From positions 1,116,001-1,180,000 of the forward strand of contig NZ_AP022826.1 of NCBI RefSeq assembly GCF_014466985.1: a stretch of DNA of 64,000 nt, read 5' to 3'. Numbering within the stretch: position 1 is the stretch's first letter; each line of letters opens with the position of its first letter. The notes beneath the pieces were generated by a model that saw only the letters and a program-made list of their open reading frames with translations, had not been told where the DNA came from and ran no database searches. This document shows positions 17,496-32,083 of this stretch, piece by piece. The stretch comes from Nitrosophilus labii (lineage in GTDB: Bacteria > Campylobacterota > Campylobacteria > Campylobacterales > Nitratiruptoraceae). The position numbers and the translations under genes are program-made.

Positions 17496-20400
17496 ATGGA
17501 TATAAAAGAGTTTTTAACTTCAAAATATGAACCTAAAAAATTTGAAAAATTCTTGATAGATACATTTTACGGTTTAACTATAGCAGGTAATGATTATGAA
17601 GATACAGAGCTAAATGAATCGGAAAAAAGAAATATCCAAAAATATAGATATTTAGGCTCTATAGAGCTTGATGATGGCAAAGAGATTGGATTTTTTGAAT
17701 TTGTCTCAAAAGATACAAACATAGAAAACAAAAGAGTAGGATTTAATGCTATTTTAAAAAAGTTGGCAGGTATTTATCTTTTAGATGGAGCGATAGCCTC
17801 TTTTTACCATCCAGATAGTCATGCTTTTAGATTATCTTTGATCACATTTGAATATGAGCTAGATGGTAAAACAAATGTTAGTAGTTTAAAAAGATACACT
17901 TATGTTTTAGGTAGTGGTATTCCAATAAAAACTGCTCAAATTCAACTTAAAAATCTAAACAACTCTTCACTTGAAGCTATAAAAGAGTGTTTTAGTGTAG
18001 AGCCGGTTAGTAAAGAGTTTTTTAATGAGTATAAAAGATTATTTGAAGAGGTTAATGAGTATTTAAAGAAAAATAATTTTGCAAATTTTAAGTTTGATGA
18101 GAAAAATATAAGATCTTTTAGTAAAAATCTGCTTGGTAGGATTATATTTTTATACTTTTTGCAAAAAAAATGTTGGCTTGGAGTAAGAAGGGAATGGGGC
18201 GATGGAAGTAGAGATTTTTTAAGAGAGCTTTTTTATAAAAATCAGAATAAAAATTTTTATGAAGATTTGCTAAAACCACTCTTTTTTGAAGCACTAAATA
18301 CGAAAAGAGAGGATGATTATTTTAAGCTAATTAATGCAAAACTGCCATTTTTAAATGGTGGACTCTTTGAAAAAAAAGAGTTTGATAATGAGTTTTTATA
18401 TATTGATAATGAAATTTTTGAAGATATACTTGAGACCTTTTCAAGGTTTAATTTTACAATTATTGAAGATACACTTGATGATGTTGAAGTGGCAATCGAT
18501 CCTGAAATGTTAGGGCGAGTATTTGAAAATCTTTTAGAAGAAAATTATCGAAAAGGAAAAGGAGCTTTTTATACTCCAAGAGAGATAGTTTATTATATGT
18601 GTAAAAGTTCAATCTTAGAGTATCTATCTAACTTTTTTGAAAAAGATAAACTAAAAGAACTTGTTTTTTATAAAAAAACAGATGATAAATATTTTTTGCA
18701 AAATGGTAAATTAATAGTAGAAAAACTAAAAAATATTAAAATCTTAGATCCTGCTATCGGAAGTGGTGCATTTCCGATGGGAATGTTATTAGAAATTGTT
18801 GAGATTATTCACAACTTAAATAAAACTTTAAATGAAGAAGAGATTGCAAAACTAAAAAGAGCTATCATTGAAAATTCTATTTATGGAGTAGATATAGATA
18901 AGAGTGCAGTTGATATTGCAAAGCTTAGATTTTGGATAAGTTTGGTTGTAGATGAGACTAAGCCTCTTCCACTTCCAAATCTTGATTTTAAGATTATGCA
19001 AGGAAATAGTCTAATTGAGACTATTGATGGATTTGATGTAGTTCCTGCTGATATCTATGAAAAAAAAGAGCAAAAACAAAAAAATCTCTTTGAATTAGAG
19101 GATTTAACTCTTTTTGATAAATCTCTTTTTGAAGATTTAAAAGAAAATATTCATAAATTTTTCAATGAAACAAATCCGAAAAATAAACAAAAACAAAAAG
19201 AAAAAATAAAAAAAGATATTAAAAAGCTTATTTTAACTTATATAGATGAAAAAGAAAAAGAACTTGGATATAGGGAAAAAGATTTAACTCTTGGAGCAAA
19301 TTCAACAAATAAGAAAAAAATAATAAATCAAATAGATGAACTATATGACAAAATTGCAAAGGCAAAAAAGGTTATAAACGATTTATTAAACAATAACTTC
19401 CAAACAGATGAATTATTTTTATATAAGTTATTCTTTGGAGAGGTAATTAAAGAAGGTGGATTTGATATAGTTATAGGAAATCCGCCGTACATTAAAGAAT
19501 ACACTAATAAAAGTGCATTTGATAATTTATATAATTTAGAGTGTTATCAGGGTAAAATGGATATTTGGTATTTATTTGGATGTAAGGGGCTTGATTTATT
19601 AAAAGAAAATGGAGTTTTATCTTTTATTGCCACAAATAATTGGATTACTAATAGTGGGGCTAAAAAGTTTAGAGAAAAGATTTTAACAAATAGTCAAATA
19701 GTTGAATTTATAGATTTTAAAGATTACAAAGTTTTTGACACTGCTGGAATACAGACTATGATATTTATATTAAAAAAAGCAAATCCACAAAAACCATATG
19801 AAGCAAAAATTAAAAATTTAATTGATTATAGAATGGAGAAAAAAGAACTTAAAGAATTTTTAGAAAATACTAAATTTGGAGAGAGTTTTAATTCTATAAT
19901 TTTACTTGATAATCCAAAAGAGCCGATTCATTTTATCAAAAAAGAGATATTTAAAATTATTGAAAAGATAAAACAGAAACAAAATTTTTATATAAAAGAA
20001 GATGAGATAGCACAAGGTATAGTCATTCCACAAGATTATTTAAATAAAAAGAATGCACAAATTTTAAATTTGAAGATTGGACAAGGTATTTTCGTTTTAA
20101 CCAAAGAAGAATTAGAGAATTTGAATTTAACTAAAAAAGAATTAGAGCTAATTAAACCATATTACACTAGTGATGAAGTAAGAAAATTTTATACGAAAAA
20201 AGATAATGCTAAATATATAATCTATACAACATCAAAATTTAAAAATCAAAAAGAGATAGAGCCTTATCCAAATATAAAAAAACATCTTGATAGATTTAAA
20301 GAAGTGATAACCTCAGATAATAAACCTTATGGACTTCATAGGGCAAGAGATGAAAAGTTTTTTAAGGGAGAAAAAATAACTGTTCAAAGAAAATGTCCTA

Positions 20401-20948
20401 AAGAACCTATTTTTAGTTATAGTAACTTTGATACATATTTATCAGCGATGTATTATATTATAAAAACAAATAGAATAAATCTGAAATATCTTTTAGCCTT
20501 ATGTAATTCAAAACTTTTTGCTTTTTGGCTAAAGTTTAAAGGAAAAATGCAAGGAGATAATTATCAAATAGATAAGGAACCATTATTAAATTTACCTATA
20601 TACAAAATTGAAGATACCAAGCCTTTTGAAATTTTAGTAGATTATATAATTTTTTTAAAAAGTTTAGATAAGGATATAGATAAATATGTATCAAATAAAC
20701 ATATTATAAAAGAATTTGAAGAAGTCCTTGATGCAATGATATTTGAGCTCTATTTTGAAGAAGAGTTTAAAGCTAAAAATATAGAGTTTATAAAATTTGT
20801 AAAAAGAGATTTTAAGGATTTAAAAGATTCTAATACTATTTTAGAAAGTTATAATATCTTAACCGAATCAAAAAATGAAATTAGAAATAATCTACTTTTA
20901 CTTGATATTGAATTTAATGATATATTGTTGATTAAAAGGAATTTGTAG
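17496..20948 (+). CDS. TaqI/Eco57I-type N6-adenine DNA methyltransferase, large
   Basis: A 1150-residue protein with SAM motif I DPAIGSGAF (418-426) and catalytic motif IV NPPY (662-665). Between them is a charged Lys/Glu-rich insertion (about 540-630). The C-terminal third (from about 850) resembles a TaqI-type target recognition domain. I see no clear PD-(D/E)xK nuclease motif in the N-terminal 400 residues, so it may be methylase-only and mark self DNA for the helicase/ATPase partners; a type IIG enzyme is the alternative. The stop overlaps the ATPase start by 1 bp. Base composition is much richer in A+T than the core genes, suggesting transfer. Confidence 0.83.
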   Translation: MDIKEFLTSKYEPKKFEKFLIDTFYGLTIAGNDYEDTELNESEKRNIQKYRYLGSIELDDGKEIGFFEFVSKDTNIENKRVGFNAILKKLAGIYLLDGAIASFYHPDSHAFRLSLITFEYELDGKTNVSSLKRYTYVLGSGIPIKTAQIQLKNLNNSSLEAIKECFSVEPVSKEFFNEYKRLFEEVNEYLKKNNFANFKFDEKNIRSFSKNLLGRIIFLYFLQKKCWLGVRREWGDGSRDFLRELFYKNQNKNFYEDLLKPLFFEALNTKREDDYFKLINAKLPFLNGGLFEKKEFDNEFLYIDNEIFEDILETFSRFNFTIIEDTLDDVEVAIDPEMLGRVFENLLEENYRKGKGAFYTPREIVYYMCKSSILEYLSNFFEKDKLKELVFYKKTDDKYFLQNGKLIVEKLKNIKILDPAIGSGAFPMGMLLEIVEIIHNLNKTLNEEEIAKLKRAIIENSIYGVDIDKSAVDIAKLRFWISLVVDETKPLPLPNLDFKIMQGNSLIETIDGFDVVPADIYEKKEQKQKNLFELEDLTLFDKSLFEDLKENIHKFFNETNPKNKQKQKEKIKKDIKKLILTYIDEKEKELGYREKDLTLGANSTNKKKIINQIDELYDKIAKAKKVINDLLNNNFQTDELFLYKLFFGEVIKEGGFDIVIGNPPYIKEYTNKSAFDNLYNLECYQGKMDIWYLFGCKGLDLLKENGVLSFIATNNWITNSGAKKFREKILTNSQIVEFIDFKDYKVFDTAGIQTMIFILKKANPQKPYEAKIKNLIDYRMEKKELKEFLENTKFGESFNSIILLDNPKEPIHFIKKEIFKIIEKIKQKQNFYIKEDEIAQGIVIPQDYLNKKNAQILNLKIGQGIFVLTKEELENLNLTKKELELIKPYYTSDEVRKFYTKKDNAKYIIYTTSKFKNQKEIEPYPNIKKHLDRFKEVITSDNKPYGLHRARDEKFFKGEKITVQRKCPKEPIFSYSNFDTYLSAMYYIIKTNRINLKYLLALCNSKLFAFWLKFKGKMQGDNYQIDKEPLLNLPIYKIEDTKPFEILVDYIIFLKSLDKDIDKYVSNKHIIKEFEEVLDAMIFELYFEEEFKAKNIEFIKFVKRDFKDLKDSNTILESYNILTESKNEIRNNLLLLDIEFNDILLIKRNL

Positions 20949-22786
20949 TGAAAAGAATTAATAGTATTAAATTAAAAAATTTTAAGTTTTTTTATGATGA
21001 AGAGACTTTAAAATTTAATAAAAAAAATATTTTAGTTTATGGAGAAAATGGAAGTGGGAAAAGTTCGCTTTATTGGGCTTTATATACATTTTTACAAAGT
21101 AGTTTTAAAGATGATGAGGGAGTAAAAAAATATTTTGATAAAGAAAATAGTCAAAATTTAATCAATAAATTTGTAGATGATTTGCAAAAAGATGATGCTT
21201 TTATAGAACTTGAATTAATAGATACCAATTTACAAAAAACTACAACTTACAAAATTTCAAAAAATATAATTAATACAAATAAAAAAGAAGATACCCAGAT
21301 AAAAAAAGCAAATTTAACAAGTGATTTTATAAACTATAGATTGCTTTCAAAAATTTATGATTTTAAAAATTCACAAGATATTGATTTGTGGAGTTTTTTT
21401 GAAGATTATATTTTAGATTTTATTGTTTTTACTGAAAGTGAATATGAAAATTTAGCCAATTTTTGGGAGTATTTAAAAAAAGGATTAGAAAAAATAAATA
21501 ATAGATACCCTACAATCACATCTTCTATTTATAAAGATTTTCAATCGCAAATTACAAAATTTAATGAGAAAATGGAAAATTTATTAAATGAAATTTCAAG
21601 AAATACCAATAAGCTTTTACAAAATGCTTTTAAAGAAAATATTGAAATAAAGTTTAGTTACAAAAAAGCAACATATAATGATTTTTTACCAAATAGTAAA
21701 AAAAGGAATCATAAAACATTACCACCAAAAATAAATATAGAAGTTACTTTTTTTGATGAAAAAATAGATAAACCACATACTTTTTTAAATGAAGCAAGAC
21801 TTACTGCAATTGCATTATCTATTAGATTTGCAATTTTAAAAAATAGGCTTATAAGAGATGATGTTTTAAAAATTTTAGTTTTAGATGATCTACTTATTTC
21901 ACTTGACATGTCAAAAAGATTTGAAGTGATTGATATATTATTAAATGATGAAGATTTGAAAGAGTATCAAAAAATAATTTTAACTCACGATAGAGGCTTT
22001 TTTAATCTAATGCTACAAAAAATCAATCAATTTGAATGGAAAATATTTGAATTTTATAATAAAAAAGAAAATGGTATTGAAAAGCAGTGTATAAAGGAGT
22101 ATAAAGATAATCTAACTAAAGCAAGAGAGTTGTTTGAAAATCAAGATTTTGACACAAGTGCAAATTATTTAAGAAAAGAAGCAGAAAGCATTTTAAAAAA
22201 ATTTTTAGACCCGAATTTAAAATATATTAATAGAGAGTTTCAAAATTTAGAGGAATTAATCAGACGGGTAAAAAATGAATTGGATAATGAGTTTATAAAT
22301 AAGTTTAATAGAGTTTTTAAATTTACTAAAAAAGAAAATGAAGATTTAATTTTTATATATGAAAAGGAATTATTAGAAAAAATTGATACCGATTTTGAAA
22401 ATGATAATAATTTAGATCCTAATCAAAAAGGAAAATTAAGAGGACTTAAGAAAAAGTTATTTGATTTTACAAAAGAATATTATGAGATTAAAAAGGTTGA
22501 ACTTGAAATTTTTAATGAGTTAAAAAAAATAAAGGATAGAGTATTAAATCCTGCAAGTCACAATAGTGAAGCTCCACTTTTTAAAAAAGAAATTGAAGAA
22601 GCAATTGAGCTAATACATAGATTAAAAGAGTTTTTAAAAGATAAAAAAACTAAAAGAGAAATTAAACCTACGCAAGTTAATTGTAGTCAAAATAGAGAGG
22701 TAGAAAATAGTTTTCCTAATTGGACAAGTAATATTGTAATAGAACCAAAAGAAATTATTAAAAATATAAGAAATACAAATAGTTAA
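20948..22786 (+). CDS. SMC/RloC-like AAA ATPase of the defence cluster
   Basis: A 612-residue ATPase with an ABC/SMC-type head. It carries Walker A GENGSGKS (32-39), a signature-like LNEARLTAIALSIR, Walker B ILVLDD (acidic pair at 313-314) and an H-loop in ILTHDRGFF. The middle has only a short coiled segment. The last 250 residues (ARELFENQDFDTSANYLRKEAE onward) form a helical domain of unknown role. No HNH, TOPRIM or HEPN motif was seen. The GTG start overlaps the methyltransferase stop, so the two are translationally coupled. It is predicted to be the third component of the helicase-methylase-ATPase module. Confidence 0.78.
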   Translation: MKRINSIKLKNFKFFYDEETLKFNKKNILVYGENGSGKSSLYWALYTFLQSSFKDDEGVKKYFDKENSQNLINKFVDDLQKDDAFIELELIDTNLQKTTTYKISKNIINTNKKEDTQIKKANLTSDFINYRLLSKIYDFKNSQDIDLWSFFEDYILDFIVFTESEYENLANFWEYLKKGLEKINNRYPTITSSIYKDFQSQITKFNEKMENLLNEISRNTNKLLQNAFKENIEIKFSYKKATYNDFLPNSKKRNHKTLPPKINIEVTFFDEKIDKPHTFLNEARLTAIALSIRFAILKNRLIRDDVLKILVLDDLLISLDMSKRFEVIDILLNDEDLKEYQKIILTHDRGFFNLMLQKINQFEWKIFEFYNKKENGIEKQCIKEYKDNLTKARELFENQDFDTSANYLRKEAESILKKFLDPNLKYINREFQNLEELIRRVKNELDNEFINKFNRVFKFTKKENEDLIFIYEKELLEKIDTDFENDNNLDPNQKGKLRGLKKKLFDFTKEYYEIKKVELEIFNELKKIKDRVLNPASHNSEAPLFKKEIEEAIELIHRLKEFLKDKKTKREIKPTQVNCSQNREVENSFPNWTSNIVIEPKEIIKNIRNTNS

Positions 22787-23788: not shown

Positions 23789-23823
23789 ATTTGCAAAGTC
23801 AAAAGATTTAATTTAAACTTTGC
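23723..23823. repeat. Direct repeat copy 1 flanking brnTA (REP/RAYT-like)
   Basis: This copy contains AAGGGTCAGGTGATAATAAT followed by a GGCTTAAATTTGCAAAGT block and AAAAGATTTAATTTAAA. It matches the copy at 24321-24411 over nearly its whole length, apart from about 10 extra bases in the middle. The GGGGTCAGG plus AATTTTGCA-like core resembles repeats linked to REP-associated tyrosine transposases (from memory). Confidence 0.75.
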
Positions 23824-24041
23824 AATTTTTCTGCCAGCCACATTTTAATAATCGCCTGCCGACTTACTCCAATATGCTGTGCTTCTTTATCTAATTTTTC
23901 AATCATCCAAGCTGGAAAATCTATGTTTACTCTTTTTACTTTTTGAGATTTGTTTACCATTTTTATCTTTGATGTATCAAAATATTCTAAAATATCCTCT
24001 TTGTTTTCATCAAATTTTTTATCTATTTGAGATGCTTTCAT
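23808..24041 (-). CDS. brnA: BrnA antitoxin
   Basis: A 77-residue protein with a C-terminal ribbon-helix-helix motif (RVNIDFPAWMIEKLDKEA then GVSRQAIIKMWLAEKL), typical of BrnA/CopG-like antitoxins that repress the operon and neutralise BrnT. It overlaps the 3' end of brnT by 23 bp, the usual toxin-first order for this family. Its 3' end lies at the edge of direct repeat copy 1. Confidence 0.85.
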   Translation of the reverse strand: MKASQIDKKFDENKEDILEYFDTSKIKMVNKSQKVKRVNIDFPAWMIEKLDKEAQHIGVSRQAIIKMWLAEKLQSLN

Positions 24042-24294
24042 ATAATTTTACCTCCTTTTTTCTTGATCTTCTAACAGATATAATCCTAATTTTTTCTTCT
24101 CTATAAGTTATAATAGCTGTATAATATTTATTGTTAATTTTTCCAATAACTAAAAATCTATTTTCATCTAACTCTTGCTTTGATGGTAGTTCAAATGCAA
24201 ATGGGTCATCCCATAATCTTTTTGCTTCTTCAAAATCTATGCCATGTTTTTCTTTGTTTTTCATACTTTTATTCAAATCATATTCAAATTTCAT
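24019..24294 (-). CDS. brnT: BrnT ribonuclease toxin
   Basis: A 91-residue RelE-fold toxin. It starts MKFEYDLNKS, contains the family motif NKEKHGIDFEEAKRLWDDP and ends with IRIISVRRSRKKEVKLYE, which carries the basic catalytic residues. It is predicted to cleave RNA and arrest growth. It precedes brnA with a 23 bp overlap. The pair stands alone between two direct repeats, opposite in strand to the defence genes. Confidence 0.9.
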   Translation of the reverse strand: MKFEYDLNKSMKNKEKHGIDFEEAKRLWDDPFAFELPSKQELDENRFLVIGKINNKYYTAIITYREEKIRIISVRRSRKKEVKLYESISNR

Positions 24295-24415: not shown

Positions 24416-24646
24416 TTAACTATCACAACTTGGGGGCTCGGTATCGCAAGAAGTTCCCCCGCAATACTTTGCCTCCAACTCTTCAAGAGCCTTTCGCATC
24501 TCGGTAAGTATCAATTTTGCAGCTAAATCTTCATCTAGCTCAGGAATATCCCATCCATATCTTCTCATCCACTTTTCAAAAACCTCTTTAGTATCTTCAT
24601 GTATTTCCTCAGAGTATCTACACTCCTCTTTATATTCAGCTTTCAT
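24416..24646 (-). CDS. Small acidic Cys-tailed protein, unknown function
   Basis: A 76-residue acidic, helical protein (KKEVFEKW-like and EDLAAKLILTEMRKALEELEAKY segments) with a short C-terminal tail holding three Cys (CGGTSC, then PPSC). It has no signal peptide. The start codon overlaps the stop of the upstream SdhB/SdhE-like gene (TAATG), so the two are co-translated and probably act together. The tail could bind a metal or form disulphides. I do not recognise the family. Confidence 0.7.
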   Translation of the reverse strand: MKAEYKEECRYSEEIHEDTKEVFEKWMRRYGWDIPELDEDLAAKLILTEMRKALEELEAKYCGGTSCDTEPPSCDS

Positions 24647-25668
24647 TAAACTTCCTCTTTTTTATTTTCAATCATACTTTTAAGCTCATTAAATGAGATG
24701 ATTTCTAGATATATTTCCCTGCCAACTATTTTTTCAAAATTCCCAAAATTTTCTCTAAAATATTTTGCATCCTCATCTTTTGCACATATCAAAATCTCCG
24801 CTCCGCTATCCATCGCATCAAGCAGTACTGCCCCACCCTTTTTAAAAGCCATTTTTGGATTTACTTCAAGCAGTGTTTGACCTGCAAGTTTTTTTGATTT
24901 TGAAAACTCTACGATATTTGCGCCAAACTTTTTTAATCTACTTTTTACATCTTCATCTGCAAAATATAAAGCAACATTAATATCTTTTAAACTCTCTAGA
25001 GTTGGAATTTCAACTTTTTTAGAAAATTTGTAGCATATATTTTCTAAAATACTAACAGTTGGTTTTTTAGCCATATTTTTTAGCTCTTCAATCTCATTAG
25101 AATAATCTTTTCCCAAAAAAACGTTATTTTCATATTCTGAGTCCCAAAGTCCGCTTACGCCTTCGCTGATTGCTTTTAAAATCTCTTCTTTATTTTTGTT
25201 TCCTTTTTTAATCATACTATATGCCGTAACCAATACAGCATCACCTATATAATCTAAAGAGTATTCAAAGGCACTAGATGCATAATGAACATCATATAGC
25301 GATTTAAAATATTGGAAATCTCTTTCATCCGCAAATGGCTCAATAAGTTTAAAAGATTCAAAAAAATCTCTATCATCGATAACCATATCATCAACAGCTC
25401 TATACTTTGATACCGGCTCCATCACTATTTCAGTACCAAACTCATTTATTATCATCTTTGTTTTTGCCAAACTATTTACAACTTTACCATTGATTTTTAC
25501 ATAAAAATACTCTTTTTTCGGATAATCAAAATTAAAATCTTTTTTCTTAATAAAAGAGCAGATTTTTTCTATAGTATCTTGTTCATCAACATCTAAAACA
25601 AAACTTTTGTAATATGGCAGATAATCCATTTTTGCATTGAAAAAAAATGCTTTTACATTTAGTCTCAT
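24646..25668 (-). CDS. Cysteine-free SdhB-SdhE-like fusion protein (DUF5644/HdrB-like)
   Basis: A 340-residue protein. Residues 8-102 align with the N-terminus of the SdhB encoded at 30225: FNAKMDYLPYY against FNAETDYLPHY, and FGTEIVMEPVSKYRAVDDMV against FGTELTFDPVSKNRAVKDMV. The loop that holds the [2Fe-2S] cysteines is deleted and the last ligand Cys is replaced by Lys. The C-terminal part (AVLLDAMDSGAEILICAKDEDA) resembles the CCG domain of SdhE, again without CxxC. It is therefore a redox-dead paralogue, possibly a scaffold, assembly factor or regulator of the Sdh/Mfr complex. I recall Campylobacterota proteins of this type listed as DUF5644/HdrB C-terminal. Confidence 0.75.
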   Translation of the reverse strand: MRLNVKAFFFNAKMDYLPYYKSFVLDVDEQDTIEKICSFIKKKDFNFDYPKKEYFYVKINGKVVNSLAKTKMIINEFGTEIVMEPVSKYRAVDDMVIDDRDFFESFKLIEPFADERDFQYFKSLYDVHYASSAFEYSLDYIGDAVLVTAYSMIKKGNKNKEEILKAISEGVSGLWDSEYENNVFLGKDYSNEIEELKNMAKKPTVSILENICYKFSKKVEIPTLESLKDINVALYFADEDVKSRLKKFGANIVEFSKSKKLAGQTLLEVNPKMAFKKGGAVLLDAMDSGAEILICAKDEDAKYFRENFGNFEKIVGREIYLEIISFNELKSMIENKKEEV

Positions 25669-25729: not shown

Positions 25730-26809
25730 TTAGCTTTTTAAACTTCTATGTGCAATCTCTTCCAATAAAACTGTTGCATAACTTCCCTTAGGCAAAAAAA
25801 ATCCAAGCTCCACCCAAGCATTATCCTCTTTATATTCAAACTTTAAATCTTGCGGAAAAACCCATGCAAAACGTCTATCACCAAAAATCTTTATTCTCTC
25901 ATCATCAAAATCTTTCTCAATATCCCTAGCTAAACCATTGCTCCTTTTCACCTTTACTCCCGCCAAAAGCCCCGTTGGTGAAATATCTCTGTTTTGAAAT
26001 CTTTTTGATTCATCAATCACATTTTCTATCTCAAAAAACTTTCCGAAAGGATAATGGCCCGATAGATCACCGGGCAGCAACTTGAAAAACTGCTTTTGAT
26101 TTTTAAGCTCATCTATAATTCCACTTGGAAGGTTCAAGAGATTTTTTAGTTCATTTTTTTTAAAAGAGTTTACAAGTTTTGAGATCTCCACTCTTTTTGA
26201 AAGCCAAAGATTGAAAAGGTAGCTTTGGTATGCATTTATAAAGAGTTTCTCTTTCTTTTTGTTTCTCTCTTTTCTTTTTTGTTCTACTATCTCTTTTCCT
26301 ATAATATAGTTTTCCCCATCAACTCCAAATCTTTGATACCCAAAAAAGTTTGGCACTCCCTCTTTATCAATAATTTTTAAGACATTTTCTATCTTTTTTG
26401 CGTCAACCGGCATAACTTTTTTTAGTCTTATAAAAAACCTGTTTCCTTTTAAATGACCGATTCTTAGTTTATTTTTATGTCTTGTGATCTCTATTATCTT
26501 GATATTTTTATGAGAAAAACTTTTTAAATCTTCTTCAAATTTTTTGTTTATAGAGATATATTGATACGTAAGCGCGTTTTTATCTTTTAGACCGGCATAA
26601 CCTATATCTTTTAACTTTACTCCAAGTTGCTCGCTAAAAGCTTGAAGCATCTGCCATGTAGTAAGATTTTTCTTTCTAACTTTAAGTACAAGATGCTCCC
26701 CATCACCGCTAAAAGGATATAAAGGCTCCTCTTCTACGACAAAAGTTTCAGGGGATTGTTTAAAATAAAAATCTATTGGTGAGTGGTCTAAAAAAAATAG
26801 TCTATTCAT
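25730..26809 (-). CDS. truD: tRNA pseudouridine(13) synthase TruD
   Basis: Isomerises U13 of tRNA-Glu. The 359-residue protein has the TruD catalytic loop GYAGLKDKNALT with Asp76, the N-terminal FVVEEEPLYPFSGDGEHLVLKVRKKNLTT segment, and an NAYQSYLFNLWLS motif of the insertion domain. In Campylobacter truD lies next to thiL; here a toxin-antitoxin pair separates them. The 5' end overlaps the PIN toxin gene by 8 bp. Confidence 0.94.
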   Translation of the reverse strand: MNRLFFLDHSPIDFYFKQSPETFVVEEEPLYPFSGDGEHLVLKVRKKNLTTWQMLQAFSEQLGVKLKDIGYAGLKDKNALTYQYISINKKFEEDLKSFSHKNIKIIEITRHKNKLRIGHLKGNRFFIRLKKVMPVDAKKIENVLKIIDKEGVPNFFGYQRFGVDGENYIIGKEIVEQKRKERNKKKEKLFINAYQSYLFNLWLSKRVEISKLVNSFKKNELKNLLNLPSGIIDELKNQKQFFKLLPGDLSGHYPFGKFFEIENVIDESKRFQNRDISPTGLLAGVKVKRSNGLARDIEKDFDDERIKIFGDRRFAWVFPQDLKFEYKEDNAWVELGFFLPKGSYATVLLEEIAHRSLKS

Positions 26810-27212
26810 CAGTTTCCTTCAAAAACCCTTCATAATCCAAAATCTTTACTCCACAATCTATAAACTTTTTATCATTTGTTAAAAATATTTCACATTTATT
26901 CTCTTTAGCGCAAAAACATTGAAGCGTATCTTCTAAATCCCTATTATGCTTTAAAGCATATGCAATAGCACTTTTTATAACATTTTTGCCAAAAGGAACG
27001 ATATGCCAATCATTTAATACAGCTTGAAAAAATTTTAATGTCTTTTCTTTATCTTTTGTAATATAATAGAATGTGCTCAACATATCTTCACTTATATAAA
27101 CTTCATAATCTAAAAGTCTGTCGATTAAAGTTTTACGATATTTATGATTTAATCTCTTTTTTATTAAAATATCTAAAACTATATTGGTATCTAAAAATAT
27201 TTTACTCTTCAC
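26802..27212 (-). CDS. PIN-domain ribonuclease toxin (VapC-like)
   Basis: A 136-residue PIN domain. The first catalytic Asp is in KIFLDTNIVLDIL, further acids are in LEDTLQCFCAK, and the last is in FLTNDKKFIDCGV. Such toxins cleave tRNA or other RNA with Mg or Mn. It overlaps its antitoxin gene by 11 bp and truD by 8 bp, so it has become part of the thiL-truD transcription unit or was inserted there. Confidence 0.85.
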   Translation of the reverse strand: MKSKIFLDTNIVLDILIKKRLNHKYRKTLIDRLLDYEVYISEDMLSTFYYITKDKEKTLKFFQAVLNDWHIVPFGKNVIKSAIAYALKHNRDLEDTLQCFCAKENKCEIFLTNDKKFIDCGVKILDYEGFLKETDE

Positions 27213-27498
27213 CCACTTTCCTTTTTGCAGCTACCTCTCTTAAAGTATAAATATCTTTATCTACCAAATCTTCTTCCATCTCTATACTTCCGGCAAATTT
27301 TAAAATTCTTTTTAATCTCTCCTCTTTCTCTCTTTTCTCTTTCTCTTCTATCAACTTTTTTATCTCATCTGCATATTTGTTTGATACAAAAATCCCTTTA
27401 CTCTTTTTTGTCTTTTTATCTTCAATCTCAATCAAATCATACTCATCTAAGATTTTTATATTTCTTGCAAGCTCTCTAATCCCTATCTTTTTTGTCAT
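27202..27498 (-). CDS. Antitoxin partner of the PIN toxin
   Basis: A 98-residue protein with an N-terminal short DNA-binding-like part (IGIRELARNIKILDEYDLIEI, reminiscent of Phd/YefM or VapB folds) and a highly charged helical tail (EEKEKREKEERLKRIL). It lies directly upstream of and overlaps the PIN gene. It is expected to bind and inhibit the toxin and to autoregulate. Confidence 0.7.
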   Translation of the reverse strand: MTKKIGIRELARNIKILDEYDLIEIEDKKTKKSKGIFVSNKYADEIKKLIEEKEKREKEERLKRILKFAGSIEMEEDLVDKDIYTLREVAAKRKVGEE

Positions 27499-28502: not shown

Positions 28503-30215
28503 ATGGAAATACCTATTATAAAAAAAGACGTAATTATCGTTGGAGCGGGACTTGCCGGATGTGCAGCCGCAAGAGAACTTAAAAAGAGTGGAAAGGATGT
28601 TTTGGTACTAACTAAACTCCACCCTCTAAGAAGTCATTCCGGCGCCGCGCAAGGCGGTGTAAACGCCGCTTTGAGCGAAGAAGACGACATTGAACTACAT
28701 ATGTTCGATACCGTTAAAGGAAGTGACTATCTAGCCGATCAAAATGCAGTTGAACTTATGTGTAGCAAAGCTCCTGAAACTATCAGATGGATAGAAAAAA
28801 TGGGAGCTGTATTTAGCAGACGTGAAGATGGTAAAATAGCTCAAAGACCTTTTGGAGGACAGAGCAAACCAAGAGCATGTTTTGCAAAAGATAGAACCGG
28901 ACTTACACTTTTACAAACAATCTACGAACAAGCTTTTAAAGAGGGAGTAGAGTTCTGGGACGAGTGGTATGTGGCGGATATCTTATATAAAGATGGAAAA
29001 GCTTACGGTGTTGTTGCTTACAACTTAAGAGACTCAAAACCAGCAATATTTAACGCCAAAGCCGTAATGTTTGCTACAGGCGGTTACGCAAGAGCTTTCA
29101 AAATCAACTCAAACGCACATGCAAATACTGGTGATGGACTAAGTATCTTCGCAAGACACGGTCTTCCGCTTGAAGATATGGAGTTCGTTCAGTTTCACCC
29201 CTCAGGTCTTGCAGGGAGCGGGATTTTGATAAGTGAAGCAGCTCGTGGAGAGGGAGGTAAACTTTACAACTCCAAAGGCGAAAGATTTATGGAAAAGTAC
29301 GCTCCCGAAAAAATGGAGCTAGCACCAAGAGATGTGGTTAGTAGAGCAATAGCAAATGAGATAAGAGAAGGTAGAGGCGTAGGCCCTGACAATATGGCCG
29401 TATATCTTGATCTAACCCATCTAGGCGAAGAGAAAATTATGGAAAGACTCCCGGAACTTAGAGACCTAGCTCTAACTTTCCTTGGCCAAGATATGGTAAA
29501 AGAGCCTATTATGATAACCGTTACGGCGCACTACTCTATGGGCGGTATCCCGGTAGATATCGACGGACATGTGAGAAAAAACAAAGAGGAGTTTGTTGAG
29601 GGACTATACGCAGCGGGTGAGTGTGCTTGCGTAAGTGTTCACGGCGCAAATAGGTTAGGCGCCAACTCTTTGTTGGAAGCCCTCTTTTTCGGTAGACACG
29701 TAGGAGAGTCTATAGCAAAAGATTTGGATAATATCTCATTTGAAGAGGCTCAAAAAGTTGAAGCAAACAGAATGCTTGAGGAGATGGAGTTTCTTCTAAC
29801 AAACAATGGAAAAGAGAGTACGGCACAGCTTAGAAAAGAACTTCAAGATAGTATGTTTGAAAACGCAGGCGTTTTTAGAACAGAAGAGTCATTGATAAAA
29901 CAGAAAGAGAAGTTAAAAGAACTTAAAGAGAGATTTAAAAATATACGAATAGAAGATAAATCAAAAACATTCAATACAGACCTTCAAGAAGCAATTGAAC
30001 TAGGTCATATGTTAGATTATGCAGCTTTCATAGTTGAAGGCGCGATTGCTAGATGTGAGTCGAGAGGAGCTCACTATAGAGAAGATTTTACAAAAAGAGA
30101 CGATGAAAACTTCCTCAAACATACATTAGCTTATATGGATGAAGAAGGAAATATTACTTTAGAGTATATGGATGTGGTACTCGGCAAATTTGAACCTCAA
30201 GAAAGAAAATATTAA
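28503..30215 (+). CDS. sdhA: Succinate dehydrogenase / fumarate reductase (Mfr-type) flavoprotein subunit
   Basis: A 570-residue FAD protein of the SdhA/FrdA family. It has the dinucleotide motif GAGLAG (14-19), the covalent FAD histidine in RSHSGAAQGG (His45), the substrate site stretch HYSMGGIPVD, and HGANRLGANSLLEALFFGR. With SdhB and a CCG-type SdhE it forms a type E enzyme, like the methylmenaquinol:fumarate reductase of Wolinella and Campylobacter. Unlike Wolinella MfrA, no twin-arginine signal is visible here, so a cytoplasmic orientation is inferred. It is first in a three-gene operon. Confidence 0.92.
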   Translation: MEIPIIKKDVIIVGAGLAGCAAARELKKSGKDVLVLTKLHPLRSHSGAAQGGVNAALSEEDDIELHMFDTVKGSDYLADQNAVELMCSKAPETIRWIEKMGAVFSRREDGKIAQRPFGGQSKPRACFAKDRTGLTLLQTIYEQAFKEGVEFWDEWYVADILYKDGKAYGVVAYNLRDSKPAIFNAKAVMFATGGYARAFKINSNAHANTGDGLSIFARHGLPLEDMEFVQFHPSGLAGSGILISEAARGEGGKLYNSKGERFMEKYAPEKMELAPRDVVSRAIANEIREGRGVGPDNMAVYLDLTHLGEEKIMERLPELRDLALTFLGQDMVKEPIMITVTAHYSMGGIPVDIDGHVRKNKEEFVEGLYAAGECACVSVHGANRLGANSLLEALFFGRHVGESIAKDLDNISFEEAQKVEANRMLEEMEFLLTNNGKESTAQLRKELQDSMFENAGVFRTEESLIKQKEKLKELKERFKNIRIEDKSKTFNTDLQEAIELGHMLDYAAFIVEGAIARCESRGAHYREDFTKRDDENFLKHTLAYMDEEGNITLEYMDVVLGKFEPQERKY

Positions 30216-30224
30216 GGATTGAGT

Positions 30225-31193
30225 ATGGAAAAGCAAAAAGTTACTATTAACGTTTTTAGGTTCAATGCAGAAACAGACTATCTTCCTCATTATGATAAAT
30301 TCGAGATAGAGGTTTCAAAAGAAGAGGTTGTTTTAGATGTTTTAAATAGAATAAAATGGGAACATGATGGAAGTTTCACATACAGAAGAAGCTGCAGACA
30401 CGGGATATGCGGGAGTTGTGCCATCAAAGTAAACGGAAGAAGCACTCTTGCATGTAAAGAGAGAATGATAGATATGATAGAACTTTTTGGAACAGAACTC
30501 ACTTTCGATCCTGTTTCGAAAAATAGAGCCGTTAAAGATATGGTTGTTGACAAAAGCGATTTTTGGAAAAAACATGACTCCATTATCCCTTATCTAGTTG
30601 CCGAAATCGACGAACATCCCGAAAGCGAAAATATAGTTCCTCCAAATGAAGCCGAGAAGATTGATGAGGCCGACTACTGTATTCAATGCGGATGCTGTTA
30701 CTACGCTTGTCCCGTAGTAAATGAAGCAAATGAGGACTACTTAGGACCTGCCGCCTTCGTAAAAGCTTACAGATTCAATGCCGATGTAAGAGATGAAACT
30801 AAAAAAGAGAGGCTAAAAATCGTAGATAAACTAGGAAAAGGAGTTTGGGACTGCGTTAAATGTTATGAGTGTACGGAAGCCTGCCCTAAAGAGCTTGATC
30901 CTATGAGCAAAATAACAAAACTACACAATCAACTATTCCAAGAAGAAGTTGTGCAAAAAAATGTTGCCAGCCGTCATGCCGTAGGATTTAAAAAATCTAT
31001 AGAAAAACATGGTATTTTGGATGAAGGAATGTTAGTTGCATACAGTGAAGGTTGTGGGGTATTTAAACATATCCCGGAAGCTTTGGCTATGTGGAAAAAA
31101 GGCAAAATTGTTATGCCTTGGGAGATGCCAAAATCCAAAAAACTTGATGAGATTAAAAAACTAATTAAAATTTCATCTACAGCTAAATTTTAA
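30225..31193 (+). CDS. sdhB: Succinate dehydrogenase / fumarate reductase (Mfr-type) iron-sulphur subunit
   Basis: The N-terminal plant-type ferredoxin domain binds [2Fe-2S] through Cys57, 62, 65 and 77 (CRHGICGSC, then LAC). The C-terminal domain has CIQCGCCYYACP and CVKCYECTEACP for the remaining clusters. Electrons pass between the SdhA flavin and SdhE. The start at 30225 has AAGGA six bases upstream; a TTG at 30219 is too close. The paralogue at 24646-25668 copies its N-terminal fold without the cysteines. Confidence 0.93.
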   Translation: MEKQKVTINVFRFNAETDYLPHYDKFEIEVSKEEVVLDVLNRIKWEHDGSFTYRRSCRHGICGSCAIKVNGRSTLACKERMIDMIELFGTELTFDPVSKNRAVKDMVVDKSDFWKKHDSIIPYLVAEIDEHPESENIVPPNEAEKIDEADYCIQCGCCYYACPVVNEANEDYLGPAAFVKAYRFNADVRDETKKERLKIVDKLGKGVWDCVKCYECTEACPKELDPMSKITKLHNQLFQEEVVQKNVASRHAVGFKKSIEKHGILDEGMLVAYSEGCGVFKHIPEALAMWKKGKIVMPWEMPKSKKLDEIKKLIKISSTAKF

Positions 31194-31204: not shown

Positions 31205-32083
31205 ATGAGTTTGAAGTATGCGCTTTATACAGGATGTACGGCAAGAGAAAGTACGCCGGAACTGCTAAAATCGACTTTGGCTGTTGCTAAAAAACTAGAT
31301 ATCGAACTTGTTTTGTTGGATGAAGCAAGTTGTTGTGGAGCAAGTCATCTTCAAGATTTTGACGATTTTTTATCTTTAGTTTTAAACGCAAGAAATATCT
31401 GCTATGCAGAAATGCTTGAACTTCCTATGATAACAATATGCAATACTTGTCAATTAAATACGGCACTAACTAAAAAAAGACTTGACGAAAATCCTGAACT
31501 TAAAGAGAGAGTAAACGAAAAACTTGGTGAAGTTGGTCTTGAATATAAAGGTAATGTTAGCGTCAGACACTTTTTATACGCACTTATAGAGGATTATGGG
31601 CTAGATAATCTTAGAAAAAAGGTTGTAAAACCTCTAAGTCAGTTCAACATAGCGCCATTTTACGGATGTCACAACATAAGACCAAGCGAGCTTCACCATT
31701 TTACAAACAACACTAAAGAATCAGCTTACAACCCTACAAGTCTTGATGATTTGATTGAGGCTTTGGAAGGAAATAGCGTTGATTACGAACATAAAAACAA
31801 GTGTTGCGGATTTCATGTGGATCTTCAAGCGCCAAAAACCGCAAATAGGCTAAGTGGTAACGCTTTAGTGGACGCTATAGACAACGATGCTGATATGATG
31901 GTTACTCCTTGCCCTCTTTGTCATCTAAATCTTGATGTTAAACAGCACGCGGCATCACGTGAGGTTGGAAGAGATATAAACCTGCCGGTTCTTCATCTTC
32001 CTCAACTAATAGGTCTAGCTCTTGGATGTACTCCTGAAGAAGTAGGAATCCAACATAACGTTACTGAAGTTAATATAGTTTAA
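31205..32083 (+). CDS. sdhE: SdhE/MfrE, CCG-domain membrane-interacting subunit
   Basis: A 292-residue HdrB-like subunit with two cysteine-rich CCG motifs: DEASCCGASHL with preceding CTARES and following CNTCQ, then KNKCCGFHVDL with YGCHNIRP and CPLCH. These bind [4Fe-4S]-type clusters and link the complex to methylmenaquinone in place of the haem b subunit of classical Sdh/Frd. It follows sdhB by 11 bp with AAAAGGAAAAAAG as ribosome binding site. Confidence 0.92.
   Translation: MSLKYALYTGCTARESTPELLKSTLAVAKKLDIELVLLDEASCCGASHLQDFDDFLSLVLNARNICYAEMLELPMITICNTCQLNTALTKKRLDENPELKERVNEKLGEVGLEYKGNVSVRHFLYALIEDYGLDNLRKKVVKPLSQFNIAPFYGCHNIRPSELHHFTNNTKESAYNPTSLDDLIEALEGNSVDYEHKNKCCGFHVDLQAPKTANRLSGNALVDAIDNDADMMVTPCPLCHLNLDVKQHAASREVGRDINLPVLHLPQLIGLALGCTPEEVGIQHNVTEVNIV

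Follow-up and report, generated by a model that had tools for sequence, protein, structure and literature searches.

The covalent attachment of FAD to complex-II flavoproteins is aided by the factor SdhE/SDHAF2 (PF03937), which binds the flavoprotein and which, in bacteria, binds both SdhA and FrdA (review PMC10238741). This factor and the HdrB-like subunit also named SdhE are different proteins, and SdhE denotes the latter below unless PF03937 is named. MfrABE of W. succinogenes is a related SdhABE-type enzyme of the same phylum as the organism studied here; it is periplasmic, carries non-covalent FAD and was reported with three subunits when purified (PMC2680327). W. succinogenes is a harmless laboratory organism in which Frd and MFR can be studied genetically (PMC2680327). 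Further described relatives are HP0468 of H. pylori and the solved structure 3KWL, an H. pylori protein of 514 aa and unknown function. HP0468 is annotated as DUF5644 (PMC9570263), and one study reports it as a protein of unknown function that is raised by hydrogen (PMC6090961). A published function of this family, under either HP0468 or 3KWL, was not found in the open-licence literature, where DUF5644 occurs only as a table entry and 3KWL only as a list entry. The C. jejuni member is presumably Cj1459, and neither this name nor the term 'HdrB C-terminal domain' is mentioned in the same literature. Likewise, a description of a ligand-free SdhB, or of a cofactor-free SdhB-SdhE module, was not found there.

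The window analysed here, that is, the whole stretch of 64,000 nucleotides from Nitrosophilus labii, contains on its minus strand an intact frame of 340 codons in the neighbourhood of sdhABE. Its product is a redox-dead fusion with the folds of SdhB and of the second CCG domain of SdhE, from which the first CCG domain has been lost. The protein, its parts and the genes with which it is compared are located in the window as follows.

24646..25668, minus strand: cofactor-free SdhB-SdhE fusion, 340 aa, kin of DUF5644 / HdrB-like_C (open reading frame, hhalign, AlphaFold2, fold matches, purifying selection)
25372..25668, minus strand: beta-grasp domain of SdhB, residues 1-99, whose [2Fe-2S] loop is either deleted or replaced (alignment, fold)
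25054..25371, minus strand: helical C-terminal domain of SdhB, residues 100-205, equal to the DUF5644 region, without the [4Fe-4S]/[3Fe-4S] ligands
24997..25053, minus strand: low-confidence linker, residues 206-224, at the site of the first CCG domain of full-length relatives (pLDDT; split and fused relatives compared)
24649..24996, minus strand: second CCG domain of SdhE/HdrB, residues 225-340, ligand cysteines absent
24416..24646, minus strand: small Cys-tailed ORF, 76 aa, overlapping the stop codon of the fusion by 1 base
25730..26809, minus strand: truD, immediate upstream neighbour on the strand of the fusion; context only, outside the function claimed
28503..30215, plus strand: sdhA, flavoprotein of the neighbouring SdhABE
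30219..31193, plus strand: sdhB, the real iron-sulfur subunit and true paralogue of the N-terminal part of the fusion
31205..32083, plus strand: sdhE, the genuine HdrB-like subunit, which has 10 ligand cysteines and is paralogous to the C-terminal part of the fusion

For the single protein, Pfam gives only weak signals under the cut-offs, one for Fer2_3 (residues 18-104) and one for HdrB-like_C (residues 265-318), and a sequence search of the PDB ranks 3KWL first (E 3e-7), with E. coli SdhB behind it (E 0.03). In profile-profile comparison with hhalign, a profile of 19 relatives with the length of the window protein (A1) matches the true SdhB profile at E 8e-28 over 203 columns that cover both SdhB domains, and the true SdhE profile at E 1.5e-15, the gap-poor part being the region of the second CCG domain. 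The same relationships were recovered from relatives in which the two parts are separate proteins, since the N part matches the whole of SdhB at E 5e-32 and the C part the whole of SdhE at E 6e-38 over 282 columns; the split C part also matches methanogen HdrB, at E 2e-11 in sequence and with a TM-score of 0.87 in modelled structure. The AlphaFold2 model of the window protein has a pLDDT of 89 and a pTM of 0.84, with pLDDT values below 50 at residues 210-223, and a Foldseek search with this model returned 3KWL first (E 1e-14), followed exclusively by SdhB/FrdB chains up to rank 21. A second structural aligner superposed residues 1-207 of the predicted structure on SdhB/FrdB over their entire length, with Z 13-14 and an rmsd of 3-5 A, and matched residues 225-340 to HdrB residues 141-278 with Z 12.4 and an rmsd of 2.5 A. 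Thus, the N-terminal match to SdhB, which the first-pass annotation had confined to the first 100 residues, is real and extends over the entire subunit, and the ferredoxin and CCG folds, whose absence would have spoken against that annotation, both appear in the model; the proposed SdhE-like character of the C-terminal half is also real, albeit limited to the second CCG domain.

With SdhB/FrdB, the fusion shares both domains, the fold and a series of residues (FxF(N/D)AxTDYLPxYK, N72, P98, R103, DF and GxA), while it differs from them in having no ligand set and in forming a clade of its own (100/100). The CCG fold is common to the fusion and SdhE/HdrB, and full-length relatives align along the entire SdhE, whereas the window protein has no CCG cysteines and retains the second CCG domain alone. 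3KWL, the top match both in fold and in PDB sequence, belongs to the same family, but has the first CCG domain that the window protein lacks.

The loss of iron-sulfur ligands is complete in the window protein, which has none of the ligand cysteines for the [2Fe-2S], [4Fe-4S] and [3Fe-4S] clusters and no cysteine at any of the five positions of the second CCG domain, in agreement with what the first reading of the sequence had claimed for the [2Fe-2S] and CCG cysteines. Among 120 relatives aligned with true SdhB, cysteine occurs in none at three of the [2Fe-2S] positions and in one at the fourth; the four [4Fe-4S] positions are devoid of it in all 120 and carry Tyr, Leu or Ser instead (C164 is Ser in 115/120). 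A ligand set is retained in 0/120. A lone cysteine is found near SdhB position 212 or 222 in part of the family; its frequency near 212 varies with the alignment used, being either 18/120 or about 60%. The window protein lacks it and carries Asp or Ser instead. This lone cysteine makes no cluster site, because one cysteine cannot hold a cluster. At the ten ligand positions of SdhE, 28 full-length relatives have cysteine in 0/28 at nine and in 3/28 at one. Since the ligands are absent, electron transfer via iron-sulfur clusters is impossible for the fusion. The family also has a signature of its own, in that Gly-Asp-Ala (GDA) replaces the Gly-Pro-Ala (GPA) that is invariant in SdhB. Acidic residues stand at former SdhE cysteine sites in full-length C parts (L006, L040, L041 and other loci), namely Asp at C44 in 22/28, Glu or Asp at C79 in 25/28 and Asp at C236 in 17/28. 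These might form a new metal or polar site in the full-length members; the replacements are not kept in the 340-aa type.

As a sequence family the window protein is not new, as it belongs with DUF5644 (PF18712) / HdrB-like_C (PF22196). It scores under the Pfam cut-offs itself (HdrB-like_C 16.9 bits, no DUF5644 match), and membership follows from 3KWL being its best match and from its position in the same clade as relatives that pass; one of these, L024, can be aligned with it end to end and scores 33.8 for HdrB-like_C and 28.5 for DUF5644. Since DUF5644 maps behind the N-terminal domain in the relatives, it corresponds to the helical domain that in SdhB binds clusters and here no longer does. 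No DUF5644 was detected in 14 control genomes, and PHROGs and PADLOC gave no useful match for the window protein. A known family with a solved structure, present in relatives of Helicobacter, Campylobacter, Sulfurospirillum and Sulfurovum, thereby gains an identity as a cofactor-free SdhB-SdhE module, which makes its role testable.

Across 249 Campylobacteria genomes the family takes three forms: a split pair of adjacent genes of about 210-235 and 211-281 aa (L006, L041, L045 with 236 + 277 aa, L049, L051), a fusion of about 500 aa like 3KWL (L046, L047, L052, L056), and the form of 324-375 aa to which the window protein belongs. Both CCG domains are present in full-length members, be they pairs or single fusions, whereas the window form has lost the first. 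A likelihood tree of 55 sequences places all 32 ligand-free proteins in a single clade with 100/100 support, apart from SdhB, MfrB and FrdB; the tree is unrooted, and judged by branch lengths, the closest group of true subunits is the SdhB of SdhABE. The ligand-free family therefore arose once within Campylobacterota and is paralogous to the SdhB-SdhE electron-transfer module. Selection is still acting on the gene, for the near-copy in another genome (L088) is 96% identical, with a dN/dS of 0.16 indicating purifying selection, lower values (0.02-0.06) being found for sdhABE; the frame is stable and non-decayed, as had been noted from the sequence. The loss of every ligand and of one domain could be read as the decay of a pseudogene, or the likeness as due to chance, but this is hardly credible and was rejected in view of the dN/dS, the near-copy, the signature residues of the family such as GDA, and the conservation of the gene in at least 160 of the 249 genomes.

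In the window, the small ORF, the fusion gene, truD, a PIN toxin gene with its upstream ORF, and thiL follow one another on the minus strand, and then come sdhABE on the plus strand and soxZ. The fusion gene and sdhA are on opposite strands and 2.8 kb apart, separated by truD, a toxin-antitoxin pair and thiL. Linkage was counted in 80 loci from named genomes, of which 65 are assessable and 15 cannot be judged; the contig search brought mostly Sulfurovum relatives, and the counts are weighted accordingly. In 57/65 assessable loci sdhA or sdhE lies within 8 kb, and in 8/65, each with both flanks of at least 3 kb, neither does. The gene stands less than 1 kb upstream of sdhA on the same strand in 45 of the 57 linked loci, less than 1 kb downstream of sdhE in 5, on the opposite strand in 4 and farther away in 3, which gives 50/65 assessable loci with the gene on the same strand within 1 kb of sdhA or sdhE. 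In Sulfurovum and others it is placed directly before sdhA or after sdhE, and in two f6 genomes (L042, L043) the gene, sdhA, sdhB and sdhE form a tight run. The description of the gene as near the sdh operon thus applies beyond the window, as the gene usually adjoins sdhABE where both occur. The order thiL, truD, gene and small ORF recurs in L088, L089 and L091. In the f10 genomes and L051, which have no sdhABE at this place, a split pair is flanked by truD/thiL and soxZ, an arrangement that may reflect the loss of sdhABE from an earlier cluster. In the Helicobacter-like and Campylobacter-like genomes looked at, the gene is not near the frd genes. In the Helicobacter-like loci L045-L050, the split or fused gene is preceded by a pepF-like peptidase gene and an ORF of 154-156 aa without Pfam match, and followed by a gene for a TerB-like membrane protein.

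The small Cys-tailed ORF had been proposed in the first-pass annotation as a partner with which the fusion could form a new complex. In five genomes of sister genera in the same family that have no fusion gene, this ORF is present directly after truD with 72-85% identity, and a close copy of it was not found in most carriers of the fusion gene. Because it is conserved after truD where the fusion is absent, the ORF goes with truD and not with the fusion protein, and it was rejected as a partner. Distant likely relatives of the ORF (E 1e-7 to 1e-5) occur across the class.

Carriers of the fusion gene number at least 160 of the 249 Campylobacteria genomes, comprising 130 by DUF5644 match and 30 further full ORFs by judgement. 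At least 116 of the approximately 160 carriers have no SdhE or MfrE, and nearly all of these have fumarate reductase. FrdB is present in 150 of the approximately 160, an association confounded by descent, as the carriers belong mainly to few families; the only 2 carriers with neither FrdB nor SdhE are fragmented assemblies. Conversely, the gene is missing from 48/57 genomes with the cytoplasmic SdhABE of the window type and from 49/199 genomes with FrdB, and it is therefore not a general requirement of either enzyme. Strict co-occurrence with sdhABE was rejected on these counts, and the wide presence in genomes lacking sdhABE, which the first reading had named as evidence against its own proposal, was indeed found. 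Co-occurrence proves little here, given that a complex-II enzyme is present in almost every genome of the class. The carriers without SdhE/MfrE would suit a protein that serves in binding or sensing outside complex II, with the sdh linkage as a relic of the duplication that produced the gene, as would the position of the gene beside thiL, truD, murA or pepF-like genes, and not frd, in several families, and the rise of HP0468 with hydrogen with no known link to Frd (PMC6090961). Nevertheless, the linkage survives differing gene orders and the carriers almost always have Frd or SdhABE, so that we consider such a role somewhat unlikely.

The partner suggested by ancestry, linkage and distribution is a complex-II enzyme, and we propose, with a probability of roughly 0.4, that the fusion is a non-redox accessory protein that binds the complex-II flavoprotein (SdhA/FrdA) in assembly or control. 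Of the earlier reading, the stable frame with kept folds and lost ligands is upheld, together with its conservation across the class and its linkage to sdhABE; the suggested role may be structural, regulatory or in assembly, but its restriction to the Sdh/Mfr enzyme is not supported, given the carriers without SdhE/MfrE. The fusion would act by binding, without electron transfer, and its likeliest partner would be SdhA in this organism and FrdA where fumarate reductase is the sole enzyme. The SdhB-like part may dock at the site of SdhB/FrdB, or on the assembling SdhB-SdhE pair, and the bound fusion would hold the subunit, or help it to mature, until displaced by the genuine electron-transfer subunits; alternatively, it may set the amount of enzyme assembled. 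Docking in the manner of SdhB is not assured, because the [2Fe-2S] loop, which is expected to face the flavoprotein, is deleted. In addition, the sdh linkage could be partly inherited from tandem duplication, which counts against the assembly role.

The fusion could also be a permanent structural subunit, that is, an inactive second module on mature SdhABE/FrdABC that stabilises the dimer or the membrane contact. The frequent location of the gene close to sdhABE on the same strand is compatible with this, and the full-length forms keep the fold of the complete SdhB-SdhE pair, so that both partner surfaces could persist; but the gene is missing in most genomes that have the same SdhABE, and the purified MFR-type enzyme of W. 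succinogenes was reported with its three subunits (PMC2680327), which makes a permanent subunit unlikely.

The PF03937 factor was found in 0/150 Campylobacteria genomes, with the positive controls detected. It resembles the fusion solely in the job proposed here, that of a non-redox flavoprotein helper, the two sequences being unrelated. The identity of the family bears on how this phylum, which lacks the usual assembly factor for the flavoprotein, matures its fumarate reductase and succinate dehydrogenase. The SdhA of the window retains the flavin-linking His region (SHSGAAQGG) and has no evident signal peptide at its N-terminus; the enzyme differs in these respects from MFR and scores far under the cut-offs of the MFR models. 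A role of the fusion as a chaperone dedicated to the flavinylation of SdhA/FrdA, in place of the absent SdhE/SDHAF2 (Sdh5), would agree with this retained His region, with the absence of PF03937 from all 150 genomes and with the known binding of the bacterial factor to SdhA and FrdA (review PMC10238741). Such a chaperone is nonetheless quite improbable, as many genomes of the class have such flavoproteins without the fusion, and flavinylation cannot generally depend on it. More broadly, it is conceivable, if rather doubtful, that iron-sulfur-free complex-II subunits throughout the class serve to mature SdhA/FrdA or to attach their flavin, the phylum being devoid of SdhE/SDHAF2; if true, an electron-transfer module would have become the chaperone of the very enzyme from which it derives.

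Several genes of the window surround the locus described here. The gene for the PIN-domain (VapC-like) toxin and the small ORF upstream of it occupy 26802-27498 on the minus strand, between truD and thiL; this pair is also present in L088 and is absent from the sister genera, where thiL adjoins truD. Directly downstream of the small Cys-tailed ORF, a BrnT-type toxin and a CopG-family antitoxin are encoded at 23808-24294 on the minus strand. At 17496-22786 on the plus strand, the gene for a Type IIG restriction enzyme-methyltransferase is followed, with an overlap of 1 base, by that for an SMC-like ATPase, and the two possibly constitute a defence island.
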